Shown here in pieces: positions 52,758-59,203 of a stretch of DNA of 64,000 bases (positions are counted from its first letter, which is position 1; each line of letters begins with the position of its first letter). Origin of the DNA: Cyclobacteriaceae bacterium. GTDB lineage: Bacteria; Bacteroidota; Bacteroidia; Cytophagales; Cyclobacteriaceae. The notes under the pieces were generated by a model. That model had not been told where the DNA came from. It did not search any database and saw nothing but the letters and a program-made list of their open reading frames with translations. A program made the translations under genes and the position numbers. The stretch spans positions 124,001 to 188,000 of the forward strand of contig JAEUTZ010000017.1 in the NCBI GenBank assembly GCA_016787725.1. The letters run 5' to 3'.

Positions 52758-53147
52758 GGTAGGATTTTGATACCCGAAGTAAGGTGAATCCGGGGGAATT
52801 ACAAGAGGGGCAGTTATGGCTAGAAGACGGATTGCCGCAGGATTATGCAGTGATCAACAAATATTACTTAACATAATATAAATTATATAACTCTTTCCTC
52901 GCTAAGTTCCTGACGCGCAGTTCTATAATTATATATTGAGCAAGAAAGTATTTTTTCCCACGCGCAATGAGTGCACCAGCCGCACCAAGCATAAGTAATG
53001 CAGGCCGCACAAATGCCTGGCGCCAGCCAAAGCCAGCATCACACATGCTTGATCCATCGCTCTAAGATCAATTCAATTGAGTTGCAATAAAGCTCACTGG
53101 ATTAGTTCATTAGGTTCGCCATGGAACTTCAAAGGTGTTCGCACCTT

Positions 53148-53250
53148 ATTTTTCTTTTGTCCTTTTTGCCTTGATGCAAAAAGAACGAAAAAAATCAAGA
53201 GCCAAATATGCTTCCACACACGTGCATGCGCGCCACCCCGCATTTGGCTC
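53148..53250. repeat. Nested hairpin element
   Basis: TTTTTGC, loop CTTGAT, GCAAAAA forms a perfect 7-bp stem extended by T-rich and A-rich flanks. Next to it GAGCCAAATATGC (53199-53211) pairs with GCATTTGGCTC (53240-53250) with one 2-nt bulge. This looks like a non-coding dispersed element; similar TTTTGCCTTGATGCAAAA hairpins are familiar from other Bacteroidota genomes. Confidence 0.55.
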
Positions 53251-53277
53251 GGGCCACCGCGCAGCGTTCCCAGGAAC

Positions 53278-53400: not shown

Positions 53401-54069
53401 ATGGATTACGCCAAATTAGAGCAGTACGTATCAAAACCGCGACTGGACAGGTACTTAATAAGCTGTTCAAATTCACAGGCGCGTGCAATCAATCTATATG
53501 CTGAGAACATAAAGGTTTCGCAGGCATTTTATCCGTTAATGAATTTATTTGAAACGTTTTTACGCAACAATATCAATGATAATCTAAGCACCCATTTTTC
53601 AGATAGCGCATGGATCATTAACCAAAAGACGGGTTTTATGAGTGACCCATCACTTGGACCCAAGTATCGTATGAAAAAATGTGTAATAGACGCTGAATTT
53701 AATATTCGTGGTACAATTACTCCAGGCAAGATCGTGTCGGAACAAAGTCTAGGCTTTTGGACAAGTCTTTTTGAGCCGAGTCATTATTCATTAATAAGCG
53801 GAAGTGTTATCGGATGTTTTCCTAACAAACCCGCAACGGCAAATCGCAATACCATCGCAAATTACCTGAAACGGATTCGAGAATTTAGAAACCGCATATA
53901 CCACAACGAGGCAATATGCTTCAACAATATCACTATCGACTTCATTCATGCCAGTGCCATAAAATCAGATATCTATACATTGCTCGACTGGATGGATGCT
54001 GATCTCAAACCTTACGTGCAGCAGTTTGACAATATTAGTACTGCCATAGTTCAAGCTCAAGCTGTTTAG
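53401..54069 (+). CDS. Abi-like HEPN-domain protein
   Basis: A 222-residue helical protein. The motif EFRNRIYHNEAI (Arg163-x4-His168) is the RX4-6H signature of HEPN ribonucleases and sits in the last third, as in Abi_2/AbiD/AbiF-type abortive-infection proteins. FYPLMNLFETFLRNNIN near the N-terminus and QSLGFWTSLFEPSHYS are further Abi-like segments. It would cleave RNA upon phage infection and stop growth, by family analogy. No antitoxin is seen beside it. The gene is AT-rich compared with the flanking core genes and is bracketed by hairpin elements, consistent with horizontal gain. Confidence 0.82.
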   Translation: MDYAKLEQYVSKPRLDRYLISCSNSQARAINLYAENIKVSQAFYPLMNLFETFLRNNINDNLSTHFSDSAWIINQKTGFMSDPSLGPKYRMKKCVIDAEFNIRGTITPGKIVSEQSLGFWTSLFEPSHYSLISGSVIGCFPNKPATANRNTIANYLKRIREFRNRIYHNEAICFNNITIDFIHASAIKSDIYTLLDWMDADLKPYVQQFDNISTAIVQAQAV

Positions 54070-54130
54070 TCCTACTACTCGCGATCGTACTTAAACATAA
54101 CACAAGTTACGGGCGTGCGGAATAGAAAGC

Positions 54131-54227
54131 CGCAAGGGTGCGCTGCGCCTGCTCGTAAAAAAATCTCCACCCTCCCCTCCTGCCAACCCGCATTCATCGG
54201 GTAGTATTTTTTTTACGGCAGCCCTTG
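54131..54227. repeat. Palindromic element downstream of the Abi gene
   Basis: CGTAAAAAAAT (54154-54164) pairs with ATTTTTTTTACG (54206-54217), and outside it CGCAAGGG (54131-54138) pairs with CCCTTGC (54222-54228 region). The loop is pyrimidine-rich (CTCCACCCTCCCCTCC). A non-coding inverted repeat; no gene is seen in it. Confidence 0.6.
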
Positions 54228-54269
54228 CACCTTTCCATCCGATCCCGTGGGGTTGCGCTATGTTTAAAT

Positions 54270-54437
54270 ATATACTTCGTGTCAATGTTGGCGGCTGGTG
54301 GCTGCTGCTTGGCGTTTGGCGTTCAGGTTCTCCGTTTGCGTTTCGCGTGTGGCGTTCAAGCCCACGCGAGTATTTCCTCAGGTTCTTGTGGCTTGAGGTT
54401 GCAGTTTCAGAGCTCCCGTTTTAGGGGGCTCTTTTTT
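54270..54437 (+). ncRNA. Candidate structured small RNA (unproven)
   Basis: A G/T-rich stretch with several hairpins and a clean terminator but no coding frame of note. CGCGTGTGG pairs with CCCACGCG (around 54345-54367), CCTCA with TGAGG (around 54376-54398), and the terminator closes at 54437. The Abi stop is about 340 nt upstream, too far for this to be simply its terminator. The start is a guess; no clear TAnnTTTG box was found. Confidence 0.35.
54409..54437 (+). terminator. Strong intrinsic terminator
   Basis: AGAGCTCCC, loop GTTTTA, GGGGGCTCT and T-run: 9 bp with one T-G wobble. It ends whatever is transcribed from the Abi side before the HTH gene. Confidence 0.9.
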
Positions 54438-54446
54438 CTAGTTCAT

Positions 54447-54479
54447 TAATTTTGATTAATTTTAATAAAATTTGATTAA
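54447..54479 (+). promoter_or_regulatory. Promoter box and direct-repeat operator of the HTH/methyltransferase operon
   Basis: TAATTTTG at 54447-54454 matches TAnnTTTG. TTTGATTAA occurs at 54451-54459 and again at 54471-54479, exactly 20 bp apart (two helical turns), the second ending just before the TTG start at 54483. The layout suits a self-regulating small HTH protein that binds both repeats and blocks its own promoter and start. Confidence 0.6.
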
Positions 54480-54482
54480 GCC

Positions 54483-54704
54483 TTGGAGACTAAGCTTCAG
54501 AAAATCTTGAATGAAGAAGGAATAAGTAAAGCCGCTTTGGGGAGGGCTGATGGATTGAATCCAACAACAGTCCATTTTCTATGCAAGGATTCAAAGTACC
54601 ATAAAAGGACACGAGCTTTAACTAAGCATAATGTTTTGAATGCAATTAAAGCCCTTGGGAGAAGTAAAAAAGACTACAGACTCGAAGAAGTATTCCCGGC
54701 ATAA
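54483..54704 (+). CDS. Small helix-turn-helix regulator (controller-like)
   Basis: A 73-residue protein with an HTH_XRE-like pattern: LQKILNEEGISKAALGRADG, then LNPTTVHFLCKD. Its place directly in front of a DNA methyltransferase (2 nt between stop and start) recalls the controller proteins of restriction-modification systems, which delay nuclease production. TTG 54483 is the only usable start: an in-frame TAA lies at 54477-54479. Two direct repeats lie just upstream. Confidence 0.72.
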   Translation: METKLQKILNEEGISKAALGRADGLNPTTVHFLCKDSKYHKRTRALTKHNVLNAIKALGRSKKDYRLEEVFPA

Positions 54705-54706
54705 GT

Positions 54707-55858
54707 ATGGTAAAAGAAAATAATATATCCGCTGTCTTAGATGCGGCAGCTTCAAAGAAGAGAGTCTCGGGATTTACGCATGACTTTTACAATTACCCTG
54801 CTCGATTTTCGCCATTACTTGCAAGAGAAATAATTAAGTCCTTTAGCCAGCCTGGTGACCTTGTGCTCGATCCATTTATGGGCGGTGGGACAACTCTAGT
54901 TGAAGCCAAGGTATTAGGGCGACATGCAATTGGATTTGATATAAGTTCACTGTCTTCTTTTCTTTCAAGTGTAAAATTGAATCCACTTCCCAAGAACAGA
55001 TTTTCTTTCTACAGCAACTGGGTTCGTACCACACTTCTAGAACTCAATTGTCATAAAGATGTAAAGCGCCCGACTGAATGGATTTCCAAGGGATATCAAA
55101 GAAATTTATCAAACAAGCAAACATGGCCGATAAGGAAGGTCATCGAACAATTTCTTGAATCACTCGATGGAGCCACTAACGATGAACTCGAGAAGAATTT
55201 CATGAGATGTGTACTACTAAAAACTTCTCAATGGGCACTTGATTCAAAGAAAGTAATCCCCAATGTTCAACAGTTCAAACTCAAGTTGATTGAGAATTTT
55301 GAAAGTATGATTGAAGGCGCTGAAGATTTTTGGAGCTCAAGCAACAATTCTTTGACATTGACAATCAATAAACCCGCTGACTGCATTCACAATCACACTG
55401 AATTATTTATTAATAGACAACCAAAACTCGTTTTAACATCCCCGCCATATCCTGGGATTCATGTCGTCTACCACAGGTGGCAGGTCTTTGGTAAAAGAGA
55501 AACACCAGCTCCTTTTTGGATTGCTAATAGTCTCGATGGTCATGGTCTTTCTCATTATGCTATGGGAGATAGAAAACAAAAAGGGCTTTCAACATATTTC
55601 TCGAACATTAAGAACTCGTTCGCTTCAGTAAGAAAAGTATGTAATGATGATACAATTGTGATTCAAGTGCTGGCCTTTTCCGATATTAAATGGCAACTTC
55701 CAAAATATTTAAGGACAATGGAAGAAGCTGGCTTTGTAGAATTTATCCCAAATGAGCAGAGAATTTGGCGAGACGTTCCAAATAGAAAATGGTATGCTCA
55801 TCAGAAGGGCAGAACTTCAAGCAGCCAGGAAGTTATACTGTTTCATAAAACTATGTAG
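54707..55858 (+). CDS. Site-specific DNA methyltransferase (N4-cytosine/N6-adenine type)
   Basis: A 383-residue SAM-dependent DNA methyltransferase. Motif X-like start FTHDFYNYPARFSPLLA, motif I DPFMGGGTTLVEA (55-67) and GFDIS, then a stretch of about 170 residues that may hold the target-recognition part, and catalytic motif IV TSPPYPG (244-250). The order X-I-TRD-IV is the alpha arrangement; SPPY is common in N4-cytosine enzymes but also in N6-adenine ones. Its 3' end overlaps by 8 nt the 3' end of the convergent ATPase gene, which suggests one linked module. Confidence 0.88.
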   Translation: MVKENNISAVLDAAASKKRVSGFTHDFYNYPARFSPLLAREIIKSFSQPGDLVLDPFMGGGTTLVEAKVLGRHAIGFDISSLSSFLSSVKLNPLPKNRFSFYSNWVRTTLLELNCHKDVKRPTEWISKGYQRNLSNKQTWPIRKVIEQFLESLDGATNDELEKNFMRCVLLKTSQWALDSKKVIPNVQQFKLKLIENFESMIEGAEDFWSSSNNSLTLTINKPADCIHNHTELFINRQPKLVLTSPPYPGIHVVYHRWQVFGKRETPAPFWIANSLDGHGLSHYAMGDRKQKGLSTYFSNIKNSFASVRKVCNDDTIVIQVLAFSDIKWQLPKYLRTMEEAGFVEFIPNEQRIWRDVPNRKWYAHQKGRTSSSQEVILFHKTM

Positions 55859-58298
55859 TTGACTTTTGCTTTGACATGGCCAACATCAGACGAGCCGACT
55901 CAAGGGCTTGCTTGACTTGCATTTGAGCTACACGGCTTCGTTCTTTTTCCAACTCAGTGTTTATTTTCAATTCATCTTCCTCCGGGATATTGCTATCCTT
56001 TTTACTATTGAGTTGAAGTATTGCATGGTATCCTATCCAAACTTTGTAATTAGTTTCAAAAAACTTGTAAAGCAATGGTTCTTCCCTTTTCAATTTCTCA
56101 ATCATATTATAAAAAGGTGTAAAGACTGTGGAGTACCATACAATGGTTTTACTGCCCATACTTTGGGGATTATATGCAACGGTGCTCACATTATCAGACT
56201 CAGAAGTGCAGTTAGGCCACACCTGATTCCATTTGTCTGAATTATCATCGGGGTTAATTGGCAAGACCTCAAAATCTGGAATAAATCCCTTTTCTTCTTT
56301 TGCGGGCTTCTCTTTTGGTAAAATTATCTCATACATTATCGAGGCTTTTAGTTGATCACCATTCGGTTTTGTAAGAGTTACGACCACCTCTCCGATATCG
56401 CCCACTTTGGCATTCTCCACAGTTTTCAATCTCCATTTTGTTCGCCCTCCATGTAGGGGAAAGTGAGAGGCAATATCTAAAGATTCAGGTTCTATCTTCA
56501 ATCGTATGTCCTTTTCAAATTGCGAGTCAGCATCCGTTTCAACTTGGATGAGTGCAGTCCCGTTCAACCGAACTCTCAATTCAGATTTTGGAGAAACGAT
56601 TTCGAACCGTGTGACTTCAGGGAAAGGCAAAGTTTGAAGAGGTGGAAGCGGTTCGGGCCCAGGCCCCGGAGGTTTGGGGTCAGGGCGGTCGATTGGTTCA
56701 CCCAATCCGCCCGGTCTTGTAACATCGCCCTGAGCACTCGGTTCAAAACCGGCTTCTTGCAGCAATTTTACAATTTGTTTTTTGACTTCATCATCGGTAG
56801 TTTCAGTCACTTCTTTAATAGCCTTTTCTACCAACTCGTTCTCAATTTTTAATAGTTCAGAATCCTCGCTTAAGATTCTCCTAACCTCTTGTTTAATGCT
56901 TTCGAGTACGTCTCCATCTTTTAGACTCTCACGATTAGTTGTAAACAATTTTCTTTTTGTGTCCATCGGAGCCTCTGTCGCATCAATGTGAATAACTAAA
57001 TGCTTGGAAACCGAATCCAACGAGAGATCCTTCATCAGCTGACTTGCGGTCAATTCCCCTTGATTTTGACCGTTAACAGTTAGAACTGCGAGATGTCTAG
57101 TCTGCACAAACAGCGCGTTAGAATATTCACGTAAAGAGTAATACTCTTCACCTGTCTTCTTATTTTTCTTTTTTCGTTCATTAAACACAACCCAATACTC
57201 TACTTTTATGCAGGTACTAACCGCTCCGTGCGGTTTGATGTATGTTATCGGTCTATATAATTTTACTGATGTGTTGGAGTTATCCAACTCCTCTTCGGAG
57301 AGTGCTACTAATTTCATCAACCGATTTCTACTCCCCCCTACAATTTGCTGATTTACTTTGTTGTCCCGTAGGTCAATGATTTGAAATGGTATTAACGGAT
57401 CGAAGAGGGAGCAATGCAGATAATGATAAAGATTTCCTTCTGATGGACTTATGTCTTTGTGGATATTTGTAAGTCGAAATGAATAGTGACGTACGAGGGT
57501 ACCTCTCCTAATTTCATTAATTCTTAACTTTTCAATTCCAGGATAAGTAATGACCGGTTCATTAGATTTAAAAGATGGGGTGACTATTTCACCTTTTCCA
57601 TCCTTGATAGCTAAATAGGCATAACAATTCTCTTTGTATTCCTCGCCTAGATGAATCTCTTTAATTACAGTAAATGAAATTATCTCGGGGTTTTCATGGT
57701 GTCGCGAAAAAATAAAAACGTAATCACTGAAGGCCAGTGTTGATGACCCTCCTTGTCCAAATGCTCCAATCAGAAATTTTTTGGTGATTTTATTTCCCTC
57801 TTGCAAACTAAGGATTGTTGATGGGAATTTCTCTGGAGTAATACCAATCCCAAAGTCAATTACGTCAATCGTAGGAGCTTCACGTGTATCTGATGGATTG
57901 ATTACCACTCCGACCTTTCTGTCAAACCCTCCCCCGCCATAATTCCAGTTGAATAGACCAGATTCAGAGGTACTATAGGGTCTACCAAACCATTCATTAA
58001 CAGCTGCCTGAGGACTTAATGGTTTCGATGCAGCTTTGCTAGAGTGATCTTCCAAAACCGCATCTATCGCGTTGGTGATTCGCTCCGTCAAACTTCTTCC
58101 AGGTTTACTAGCCAACCCTATAGTAGAATAATTACTTGTCTTGTTTCCGTATGGTTGCCAAAAAAGACCCAGACCAATTGGATTTGATAAGCCCACATCT
58201 TTGTGATCACCAATCTCATGGAGTACGTCCATTATCTGCTTTGGAGTAGTTGTTGGGAGTAACCTATTAAAAAGGTCTTGAGCTGAATTAATAGCCAT
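55851..58298 (-). CDS. Large GHKL-type ATPase (MutL/MORC/Hsp90-like)
   Basis: An 815-residue protein with a GHKL ATPase domain in the first 220 residues: N-box ERITNAIDAVLED (Glu72, Asn76), G1 box DFGIG (148-152) and G2 box GAFGQGG (178-184). An S5-like transducer region probably follows (to about 480). A helical part, a Pro-rich linker (about 540-570: PDPKPPGPGPEPLPPL) and an Ig-like beta-sandwich (about 575-690) come next, and the C-terminus is helical and charged. No nuclease motif was recognised. Prokaryotic MutL/MORC-like GHKL ATPases linked to restriction-modification are known; this one faces a methyltransferase. It is the last gene of a three-gene minus-strand operon. Confidence 0.8.
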   Translation of the reverse strand: MAINSAQDLFNRLLPTTTPKQIMDVLHEIGDHKDVGLSNPIGLGLFWQPYGNKTSNYSTIGLASKPGRSLTERITNAIDAVLEDHSSKAASKPLSPQAAVNEWFGRPYSTSESGLFNWNYGGGGFDRKVGVVINPSDTREAPTIDVIDFGIGITPEKFPSTILSLQEGNKITKKFLIGAFGQGGSSTLAFSDYVFIFSRHHENPEIISFTVIKEIHLGEEYKENCYAYLAIKDGKGEIVTPSFKSNEPVITYPGIEKLRINEIRRGTLVRHYSFRLTNIHKDISPSEGNLYHYLHCSLFDPLIPFQIIDLRDNKVNQQIVGGSRNRLMKLVALSEEELDNSNTSVKLYRPITYIKPHGAVSTCIKVEYWVVFNERKKKNKKTGEEYYSLREYSNALFVQTRHLAVLTVNGQNQGELTASQLMKDLSLDSVSKHLVIHIDATEAPMDTKRKLFTTNRESLKDGDVLESIKQEVRRILSEDSELLKIENELVEKAIKEVTETTDDEVKKQIVKLLQEAGFEPSAQGDVTRPGGLGEPIDRPDPKPPGPGPEPLPPLQTLPFPEVTRFEIVSPKSELRVRLNGTALIQVETDADSQFEKDIRLKIEPESLDIASHFPLHGGRTKWRLKTVENAKVGDIGEVVVTLTKPNGDQLKASIMYEIILPKEKPAKEEKGFIPDFEVLPINPDDNSDKWNQVWPNCTSESDNVSTVAYNPQSMGSKTIVWYSTVFTPFYNMIEKLKREEPLLYKFFETNYKVWIGYHAILQLNSKKDSNIPEEDELKINTELEKERSRVAQMQVKQALESARLMLAMSKQKSTT

Positions 58299-58334
58299 CT
58301 TAGTTGTAATTAATTTTTCTTATTAGAGTTAAAG

Positions 58335-58514
58335 TCAAGAAGTCAAATGAGCCTGAGGTGCTCGCTTGACAATCCGTTGAGAGATTTTCCTACGCGAGGC
58401 TTTTAACATTAAATACAACTCTTTGAGAGTTATGTCAGGTAACTTATCCAAATGGTCAAATACATTTTCCTTTTCATTCACTACATGATTCGTGTTTTCT
58501 GCTATTAGTGCCAT
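58335..58514 (-). CDS. Small protein (59 residues) in the ATPase operon
   Basis: Reading MALIAENTNHVVNEKENVFD, then HLDKLPDITLKELYLMLKAS and RRKISQRIVKRAPQAHLTS. The first half is acidic, the second strongly basic and probably helical. It lies 9 nt after the upstream 76-residue gene and 36 nt before the ATPase start, all in one direction, which is the main argument that it is real. No family recognised. Confidence 0.5.
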   Translation of the reverse strand: MALIAENTNHVVNEKENVFDHLDKLPDITLKELYLMLKASRRKISQRIVKRAPQAHLTS

Positions 58515-58523
58515 ATGTACACA

Positions 58524-58754
58524 TTAGAATTTAAATTCAGACTTATTTTGCTTGCTCAATTGACCAGAAAATTCTGTCTCCACATCATTCAATTTATCCC
58601 TAAGCACTTTAATCATTTTCCTAACATCGCTTTCGTCATATTCATAGTTATTCCTATTAGCGCATTTTGATAAACTTGAAAGGGTTCGTATTAACCTGTT
58701 AACTCTGTTTCCAGCAACTTTTTCAAACCGTTTTCTCCTACTATTCTTTTCCAT
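58524..58754 (-). CDS. Small basic protein (76 residues), first gene of the ATPase operon
   Basis: The sequence MEKNSRRKRFEKVAGNRVNR, LIRTLSSLSKCANRNNYEY and DESDVRKMIKVLRDKLNDVE is helical and basic at the start. The RxxRLIRTL..KCANRxNYEY pattern recalls small proteins found in restriction-modification or mobile contexts, but this is from memory and unproven. It begins the minus-strand operon that ends in the GHKL ATPase. Confidence 0.6.
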   Translation of the reverse strand: MEKNSRRKRFEKVAGNRVNRLIRTLSSLSKCANRNNYEYDESDVRKMIKVLRDKLNDVETEFSGQLSKQNKSEFKF

Positions 58755-58824
58755 TGATATTTGCAGTTAATTTCTTTACGCAAAATGGACAATAATAGTT
58801 CATATTACCCACTACATTTTACAA

Positions 58825-58849
58825 TTATAGTGTGTATTCCGCACTATAA
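58825..58849. promoter_or_regulatory. Inverted repeat, possible operator of the ATPase operon
   Basis: TTATAGTG (58825-58832) and CACTATAA (58842-58849) form a perfect 8-bp inverted repeat around a 9-nt centre, about 70 nt upstream of the 58754 start. Its spacing suits a dimeric repressor such as the small HTH protein, although it differs from the TTTGATTAA repeats. Confidence 0.45.
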
Positions 58850-58997
58850 ATATTATCTCATGAATCTATAATTATTTAATTATCAGATATTTATATCAAA
58901 AATGGTGGGAATATATTAATTGAGAATATTTTTTGAATATGTACTGGTAGTAGATCGTATCAAGTCGGAATCACCGCTTGCATCGCCACACATTGTG

Positions 58998-59070
58998 CAG
59001 GCCACAAATGCCAACGCTAAGACCAAAGCCTACCCAAAGAGTGTCGCTGCCCCAGCCCGGTGTGAAGAGG
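58998..59070. repeat. Degenerate intergenic repeat, copy 2
   Basis: CAGGCCACAAATGCC, ACCAAAGCC and CCCAAAGAGTGTCGCTGCCC are shared in order, with changes, with copies near 53001 and 62437. Non-coding; see the matching copies. Confidence 0.5.
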
Positions 59071-59203
59071 GAAGATTGGGAATTGAATGCCTGCGCTAAA
59101 AAACTTTCTATGGAAATTGGGTAGGCCCGGATGCTAAAGCTACTTAACATAACGCAATGCCATTATTTAACTCAATTCAGCTTCCAACCCAGCACCCTTG
59201 ATG

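Follow-up and report, generated by a model that had tools for sequence, protein, structure and literature searches.

A block of five genes in the 64,000-nt window (the whole stretch of DNA analysed here, from a source genome of 4.21 Mb in 27 contigs) is read here as a restriction module that is mobile, guarded by methylation and of the paraMORC kind, in which a GHKL ATPase would be the restricting half, most likely without a nuclease of its own. We put the probability of this reading at roughly 0.43. The open reading frames confirmed the original prediction of an HTH gene and an alpha-arranged DNA methyltransferase gene on the plus strand, facing a minus-strand operon of two small genes and an 815-residue ATPase gene. 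Their coordinates likewise gave the 8-nt overlap that had been described for the two large genes, which converge and share positions 55851-55858 at their 3' ends. The block is also AT-rich, as claimed, with a GC content per kb of 0.35-0.41 over 55001-59000 versus 0.42-0.54 in the remaining window. The genes are:

54483-54704, plus strand: HTH protein, probable regulator; 73 aa, TTG start; HTH_26 at E=0.0037, below cut-off
54707-55858, plus strand: DNA methyltransferase (N4-C or N6-A type); 383 aa; Pfam N6_N4_Mtase at E=7.5e-20
55851-58298, minus strand: GHKL ATPase, putative restricting half; 815 aa; motifs, alignment and model
58335-58514, minus strand: 59-aa protein, weakly conserved; 41% identity in locus L026
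58524-58754, minus strand: 76-aa helical-hairpin protein, recurrent GHKL ATPase partner; homologue searches and model

The TTG start of the HTH gene is backed by a 77% identical relative in L026, and a different HTH (HTH_3) occupies the corresponding position in L027. Searches of the whole module proteins with Pfam, NCBIfam, PADLOC and PHROGs recognised no nuclease or helicase, in line with what had been reported by eye, and no cognate restriction endonuclease either, the ATPase C-terminus being searched within the whole protein. Since a DNA-cutting enzyme was not recognised, foreign DNA may be stopped without cutting.

The methyltransferase carries two catalytic motifs:

54869-54895, plus strand: motif I, DPFMGGGTT; sequence and subfamily alignment columns
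55436-55450, plus strand: motif IV, TSPPY; invariant in 6/6 of the subfamily alignment

Motif I precedes motif IV, an order that we take to denote the alpha-like class of methyltransferase. With its Pfam match and these motifs, the protein appears to be the methyltransferase expected of a Type II restriction-modification (R-M) system. The nearest solved chains were N4-cytosine and N6-adenine methylases, the match spanning the motif I region only. A bifunctional methyltransferase-nuclease was considered and rejected, the 383-aa protein having methyltransferase-type matches except for weak ones to DUF4423 and TIGR02147.

That the 815-residue protein is a GHKL ATPase, as first proposed, was substantiated by its relatives and its model. 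HATPase_c_3 was matched by six sequences of the 12-member alignment A1 (best E=1.4e-5; the window's own protein was not among the six), and the model of residues 35-495 (mean pLDDT 67) aligned with two-domain GHKL-transducer chains (Hsp90/GyrB/TopoVI/MORC/MutL-like). Searched by itself, the window ATPase gave sub-threshold matches only (Pfam RecG_dom3_C, 0.031; PADLOC PDC-M21A, 0.022) and no match in NCBIfam (limit 1) or PHROGs (limit 0.1). The N-box and glycine-loop motifs of the superfamily were found with eight invariant residues in all 26 sequences of the ATPase alignment, which omits four of the 30 loci (L017, 508 aa; L054 and L056, cut at contig ends; L080, in two frames). The features of the protein are:

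58053-58088, minus strand: N-box around E72, N76 and D79; all three invariant in 26/26
57843-57857, minus strand: DxGxG motif, D148-G152; D148, G150 and G152 invariant in 26/26
57750-57767, minus strand: glycine loop, G178-G183; G178 and G183 invariant in 26/26
57066-57074, minus strand: NGQ motif (409-411) of the transducer/S5-like domain; 26/26
56319-56621, minus strand: beta-sandwich domain, residues 560-660; AlphaFold2, pLDDT 71-91 in ten-residue blocks of 561-660
55854-56279, minus strand: C-terminal domain, residues 674-815; fold modelled with low confidence, no catalytic set conserved

The original assignment to the MutL/MORC type held for the GHKL-transducer engine, but the signatures of MORC and paraMORC2-5 were absent. 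In the model, residues 35-495 appear to include the S5-type domain that follows GHKL in MORC and paraMORC proteins. The GhXhhpXXRhl S5 motif of MORC proper had no match in the window ATPase, and the paraMORC2 signature matched only at residue 28. paraMORC3/VcSduA/Shedu was rejected by sequence rather than fold, with no DUF4263 in Pfam and no conserved ExK after residue 300; paraMORC4 was rejected with neither a C-terminal TIR match in Pfam nor an Hx[ST]xD motif, and paraMORC5 with no C-terminal HxH match. These exclusions concern paraMORC2-5 only, paraMORC1 having its own conserved C-terminal extension, with no motif published in the portion of text covered. Since the MORC and paraMORC2-5 signatures are absent, the window ATPase is, to judge by its sequence, paraMORC-like rather than MORC.

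The original prediction had hinged on conserved co-occurrence of the methyltransferase and the ATPase, and the pair indeed recurs. In eight modules the ATPase family accompanies the methyltransferase subfamily of the window (the window, L026, L027, L051, L053, L056, L079 and L080); seven are convergent, with 3' ends ranging from a 95-nt overlap to a 14-nt gap, and L056 is tandem. The ATPase-first set comprised 28 loci from 14 genomes, 6 plasmids and 8 viral contigs, with L012, L022 and L026 being one record that was counted once; L079 and L080, found through the methyltransferase, are additional to these and bring the total to 30. Within the 28, the window's methyltransferase subfamily adjoins the ATPase in six (the window, L026, L027, L051, L053 and L056), and the three of these that are viral contigs (3/8: L051, L053 and L056) were found independently of the genomes.

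On a wider view, a DNA-modification gene lies near the ATPase in 21 of the 28 loci (genomes 11/14, plasmids 4/6, viral contigs 6/8), namely an N4/N6 or C5 methylase, Ssp-like phosphorothioation or DndB, L033 being counted on its annotated DndB. ATPases of the MORC/paraMORC kind are expected in such R-M or DNA-modification neighbourhoods. We presume from their motifs that the methylases of L055, L094 and L097 are C5 and that of L050 is D12. SspBCD-like phosphorothioation genes were present in 8/28 loci, with all three in L015, L016, L018, L030 and L032 and two within the stretch in L017, L029 and L086. No modification gene was found by motif, annotation or phmmer with 12 neighbour proteins in G171, G255, G336, L031, L034, L052 and L054 (cut). 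The first of two further observations on the ATPase loci is a lone ATPase relative on a 597-kb viral contig (L052, 7926-10346). The other is that SIR2-like genes adjoin the module or ATPase in L026 (12015-13469), L053 (11795-13339) and L032 (11337-12176); these could possibly be a backup effector.

The two halves of the module have diverged unequally. The methyltransferases of the window, L026 and L027 share 56-58% mutual identity, but the L027 ATPase is only 19% identical to those of the window and L026, which share 77%. In one lineage the ATPase thus seems to have given way to a distant relative at the same position of the same layout, as far as sequence comparison indicates. The ATPase tree, drawn without a statistical test, agrees with replacement in L027, and NG86 dS was saturated for every module gene except the 59-aa gene.

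Searches that started from the methyltransferase gave a more mixed picture. When viral contigs were scanned with the subfamily alignment, nine loci came up, comprising three query contigs (L077, L078 and L082), a weak and unrelated match (L085), a locus cut at the contig end (L084) and four new full-length relatives. The ATPase is next door in L079 and L080 and absent in L081 and L083, so that the claim of a strict pair is weakened. These lone methyltransferases of the subfamily (L081, 4009-5181; L083, 3091-4527) sit amid replication-type phage genes (by eye) on phage-type contigs; they might possibly serve counter-defence through self-methylation against such modules, and other roles are conceivable too. 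Across 292 genomes of the order, the methyltransferase search gave three matches at E<=1e-30. Because the strong two (G000 and G354) are query members, this search adds no independent support; at the weak third match, G374, the 3.6-kb locus contains no ATPase. A looser single-sequence search matched 13/395 phylum genomes, of which the window's own was the sole one to score better than 1e-23. P0001 matched 0 of 50,697 phage records, while P0002 matched none of 72,556 plasmids at E<=1e-10 and, as a single sequence, none of the viral contigs. The contig search of genomes yielded a single relative, which is the G343 record.

The original prediction had treated the two small proteins as equals, and here only one of them kept its place. 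The 76-aa protein is repeatedly found next to two kinds of GHKL ATPase, but the 59-aa protein was found, among the genome loci in which it was sought, only in the window and its nearest relative (the L012/L022/L026 record, 41% identical); it has weak PADLOC matches to VakA (1.9e-4) and PDC-S05 (0.0042). The 76-aa protein is well conserved, its relatives being 39-76% identical to that of the window, and it was modelled as a hairpin of helices (pLDDT 73). It was rejected as a nuclease on the shape of this model and on its best solved match (E=0.065), which is unrelated. The gene lies directly upstream of the ATPase in 10/30 loci (the window, L014, L020, L026, L027, L028, L053, L055, L079 and L080) and was not found in the other 20, which include all eight Ssp-like loci, L051 and L056 (cut upstream).

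A search with the 76-aa protein gave 7/296 phylum genomes, three of them query members; among the four new ones, G151, G198 and G065 have a GHKL-type gene of another, ~600-aa family right after it and G045 has none. The protein also occurs on 11 of 72,556 plasmid records, and in the three that were opened (H1, H4 and H7; loci L035, L036 and L037) a ~600-aa GHKL-type gene follows, that of L036 matching the PADLOC candidate PDC-M33A at 4e-117. One of four viral loci (L057) has the same arrangement, and L058-L060 are without such a gene. The GHKL label for the ~600-aa proteins of L035, L037, L057, L094, L095 and L097 is one that we presume from their motifs. We infer that the 76-aa protein is a partner of the ATPase, which would make it a marker for finding further systems of this type. 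As a separate observation, the 76-aa family precedes GHKL-type genes of the other family in L035-L037, L057, L094, L095 and L097, several of them by a C5 methylase and Vsr. On the phage-type contigs L058, L059 and L060, by comparison, 76-aa relatives were seen with no ATPase nearby, and these might possibly act as a decoy or inhibitor.

The module lies between two of three non-coding elements, and a further gene lies upstream:

52859-53268, no strand: non-coding element A; conserved among same-genus genomes
53401-54069, plus strand: Abi_2/PD-T4-5-like protein, 222 aa; PADLOC PD-T4-5 at 4.8e-14, Abi_2 at 0.006, below cut-off
54088-54437, no strand: non-coding element B; conserved among same-genus genomes
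58980-59171, no strand: non-coding element C; recurs with A and B

The Abi_2/PD-T4-5-like gene sits between elements A and B, encodes RNRIYH, a HEPN-type motif (by eye), and is probably a separate defence gene; the module is located between B and C. The earlier description of repeat-bearing intergenic flanks was partly borne out, by inverted repeats within A and B and by their matches in 47/59 and 18/59 same-genus genomes, many of which are short and partial; the searched flanks (54080-54460 and 58920-59203), however, are single copy in the source genome at E<=0.001. In L026, L188, L189 and L191, A, B and C keep their order while the slots hold other genes, as they do in G337 and G319, which have several C copies. 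Only A and B are visible in the stretches of L187 and L190, and the A-B spacing is 12-60 nt in L184, L186 and L187. Elements B and C have a common AACATAAC-like end, and inverted repeats occur in the elements. Their identity as integron attC sites was considered and not confirmed: the ends share ACTTAACATAAC-like sequence, but no match to the attC core was seen, and no integrase by eye in the stretches. The A-B and B-C slots with variable genes (the window; L026 and L183-L191) form an apparent gene-exchange hotspot, no integrase being seen by eye near the elements in the fetched stretches.

The distribution of the module is sporadic. The ATPase was found in 3/59 same-genus genomes, the window's own included, and in 11/395 phylum genomes. 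The module is absent from all six same-genus stretches around the adjoining M1-type peptidase gene; five of these keep the peptidase pair and L125 has a single gene, L123 being too short to judge. It occurs in Bacteroidota-type genomes and several viral contigs, and integrases adjoin the viral contig loci L049 and L056.

On the reading that we favour, the methyltransferase would mark the cell's own DNA, as its family suggests. GHKL dimers close with ATP, and the ATPase dimer would be an ATP-gated clamp that, with the 76-aa helical partner, engages and stops unmarked DNA. Such a clamp could hold or compact the DNA and so block its replication or expression, most likely without a nuclease. The ATPase family is found next to several modification chemistries, and similar methyltransferases have exchanged their ATPases; on these grounds we take the ATPase to be a stopping engine of general use. 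A bolder version, which we offer tentatively, is a methylation-guarded restriction system without any cutting. The methyltransferase would label self DNA, a prokaryotic MORC-like GHKL clamp with its dedicated 76-aa partner would trap DNA that has no label, and the clamp would be a plug-in half for N4/N6, C5 and phosphorothioation marks, joined by the small partner where the mark is methylation. Several counts speak against the main reading: no modification gene was found in 7/28 ATPase loci, 2/4 new methyltransferase relatives are without the ATPase, and the 76-aa gene was not found in 20/30 loci.

Nucleases beside other members of the ATPase family count against it as well. A MutH-type REase was found in L020, a Vsr-like nuclease in L055 and an HNH nuclease in L016, and we presume genes of L015, L016 and L050 to be GIY-YIG from their motifs, that of L016 without a Pfam match. 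(The labels UvrD in L013 and HEF_HK, for a neighbour annotated 'sensor histidine kinase' of the 681-aa protein in L029, were likewise assumed from motifs; Response_reg_2 was discarded for the 681-aa protein itself, for which Pfam gave no family at E<=0.01.) The nuclease neighbours in L020, L055, L016, L015 and L050 point to other members of the ATPase family cooperating with a nuclease. A rival reading, to which we give less weight than to the main one, is methylation-guarded restriction in which a MutL-like ATPase would detect unmethylated DNA and bring in or switch on a host nuclease or helicase encoded elsewhere, so that the DNA is cut. Against it, no nuclease gene was recognised in the eight same-subfamily modules (by Pfam in L026, L027, L053, L056, L080 and the window, by eye in L051 and L079; several contigs are short), and Bacteroidota-type genomes and several viral contigs would all need a compatible host nuclease. 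As to DNA trapping versus handover to a host nuclease, the sequence itself may fit either.

It is unlikely, in our estimate, that the ATPase bears an unrecognised nuclease of its own in residues 560-815, even though the C-terminal fold is of low confidence and the paraMORC3 protein VcSduA has a C-terminal nuclease (PMC12137116). Past residue 490, the polar or aromatic columns shared by at least 70% of the 26 sequences are T588, D589, Y594, R597, W694, N723, D725 and Y751, and the window ATPase lacks four of them (594, 597, 723 and 725). No conserved ExK past residue 300 and no HxH were found in the ATPase sequence or alignment, and no nuclease-like residues past residue 490 are common to the 26 relatives, the C-terminus being poorly modelled; the matches listed from the fold search of the model all cover the GHKL part. 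The earlier suggestion of an unrecognised effector hidden in the C-terminus thus found no conserved nuclease-like residues to carry it, yet because the last 140 residues are poorly modelled, an effector fold of a new kind may lie there. Lower still do we rate an epigenetic or chromosome-organising pair, in which the ATPase would recognise sites marked by the methyltransferase and thereby control gene activity or DNA structure, with no role in immunity. Eukaryotic MORC ATPases silence, one of them entrapping and condensing DNA (PMC8277788), and the convergent pair has its own HTH gene; the sporadic spread, viral contigs, variable-gene slot, ATPase exchange and PD-T4-5-like neighbour, however, fit defence better. 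For a clamp that restricts, the module offers a convenient case, being small (methyltransferase, ATPase and one recurrent small protein), present in distant hosts and free of a recognised nuclease that would confuse an assay. It therefore poses a direct question: can a MORC-like clamp alone silence foreign DNA, and does methylation protect?

Compared with known systems, the module resembles Type II R-M in its methyltransferase, HTH gene and convergent second gene, but differs in that no restriction endonuclease was recognised in it. BREX, which inhibits phage replication (PMC13326643), is likewise methylation-guarded, as the module is read here; BREX itself was rejected, since no BREX model (PglZ, BrxC or partners) was among the PADLOC matches listed for the six proteins (for the methyltransferase, the best 25 of 64). 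ATPase relatives adjoin SspBCD-like genes such as those of SspBCD-SspE and SspBCD-SspFGH (PMC8092258, PMC12839542), where the window module uses a methyltransferase instead, and at L015-L018, L029, L030, L032 and L086 they are possibly another restricting half for Ssp-type systems. A term search for 'GHKL' and 'MORC' in reviews of phosphorothioation and BREX (PMC10853773, PMC12839542) found neither word. PADLOC candidate PDC-M33 is similar in that a 76-aa relative precedes its component A (L036), but it has a different ATPase family, two further genes and, in several loci, a C5 methylase and Vsr beside it.

Closer relations are found among the GHKL proteins, of which others, too, have been linked to R-M (PMC8011034), and HEPN domains have been reported fused to paraMORCs (PMC3710099). 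VcSduA, a paraMORC3 protein that defends against phages (PMC12137116), shares the GHKL ATPase, but is a single gene with a fused DUF4263 nuclease and no methyltransferase; its activity against phages has been demonstrated. The nearest precedents are the R-M operons in which Iyer, Abhiman and Aravind (2008; PMC2292703) described MORC and paraMORC1-5 ATPases and predicted a role in restriction, also proposing eukaryotic MORC proteins as descendants of prokaryotic relatives. The module shares with these operons the GHKL and S5/transducer engine, adjoining DNA methylases, sporadic occurrence and mobility, but differs from the ~70% of MORC neighbourhoods that have an SFII helicase; a minority had methylases or REases and no helicase. 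No methyltransferase-GHKL defence module of such form was recognised in the open-access literature searched. The original prediction of a form not obviously described therefore survives in part: the 2008 study (PMC2292703) already mentioned in outline that such ATPases occur in R-M neighbourhoods devoid of helicases, so the kind is known, and only the present form appears to be new.
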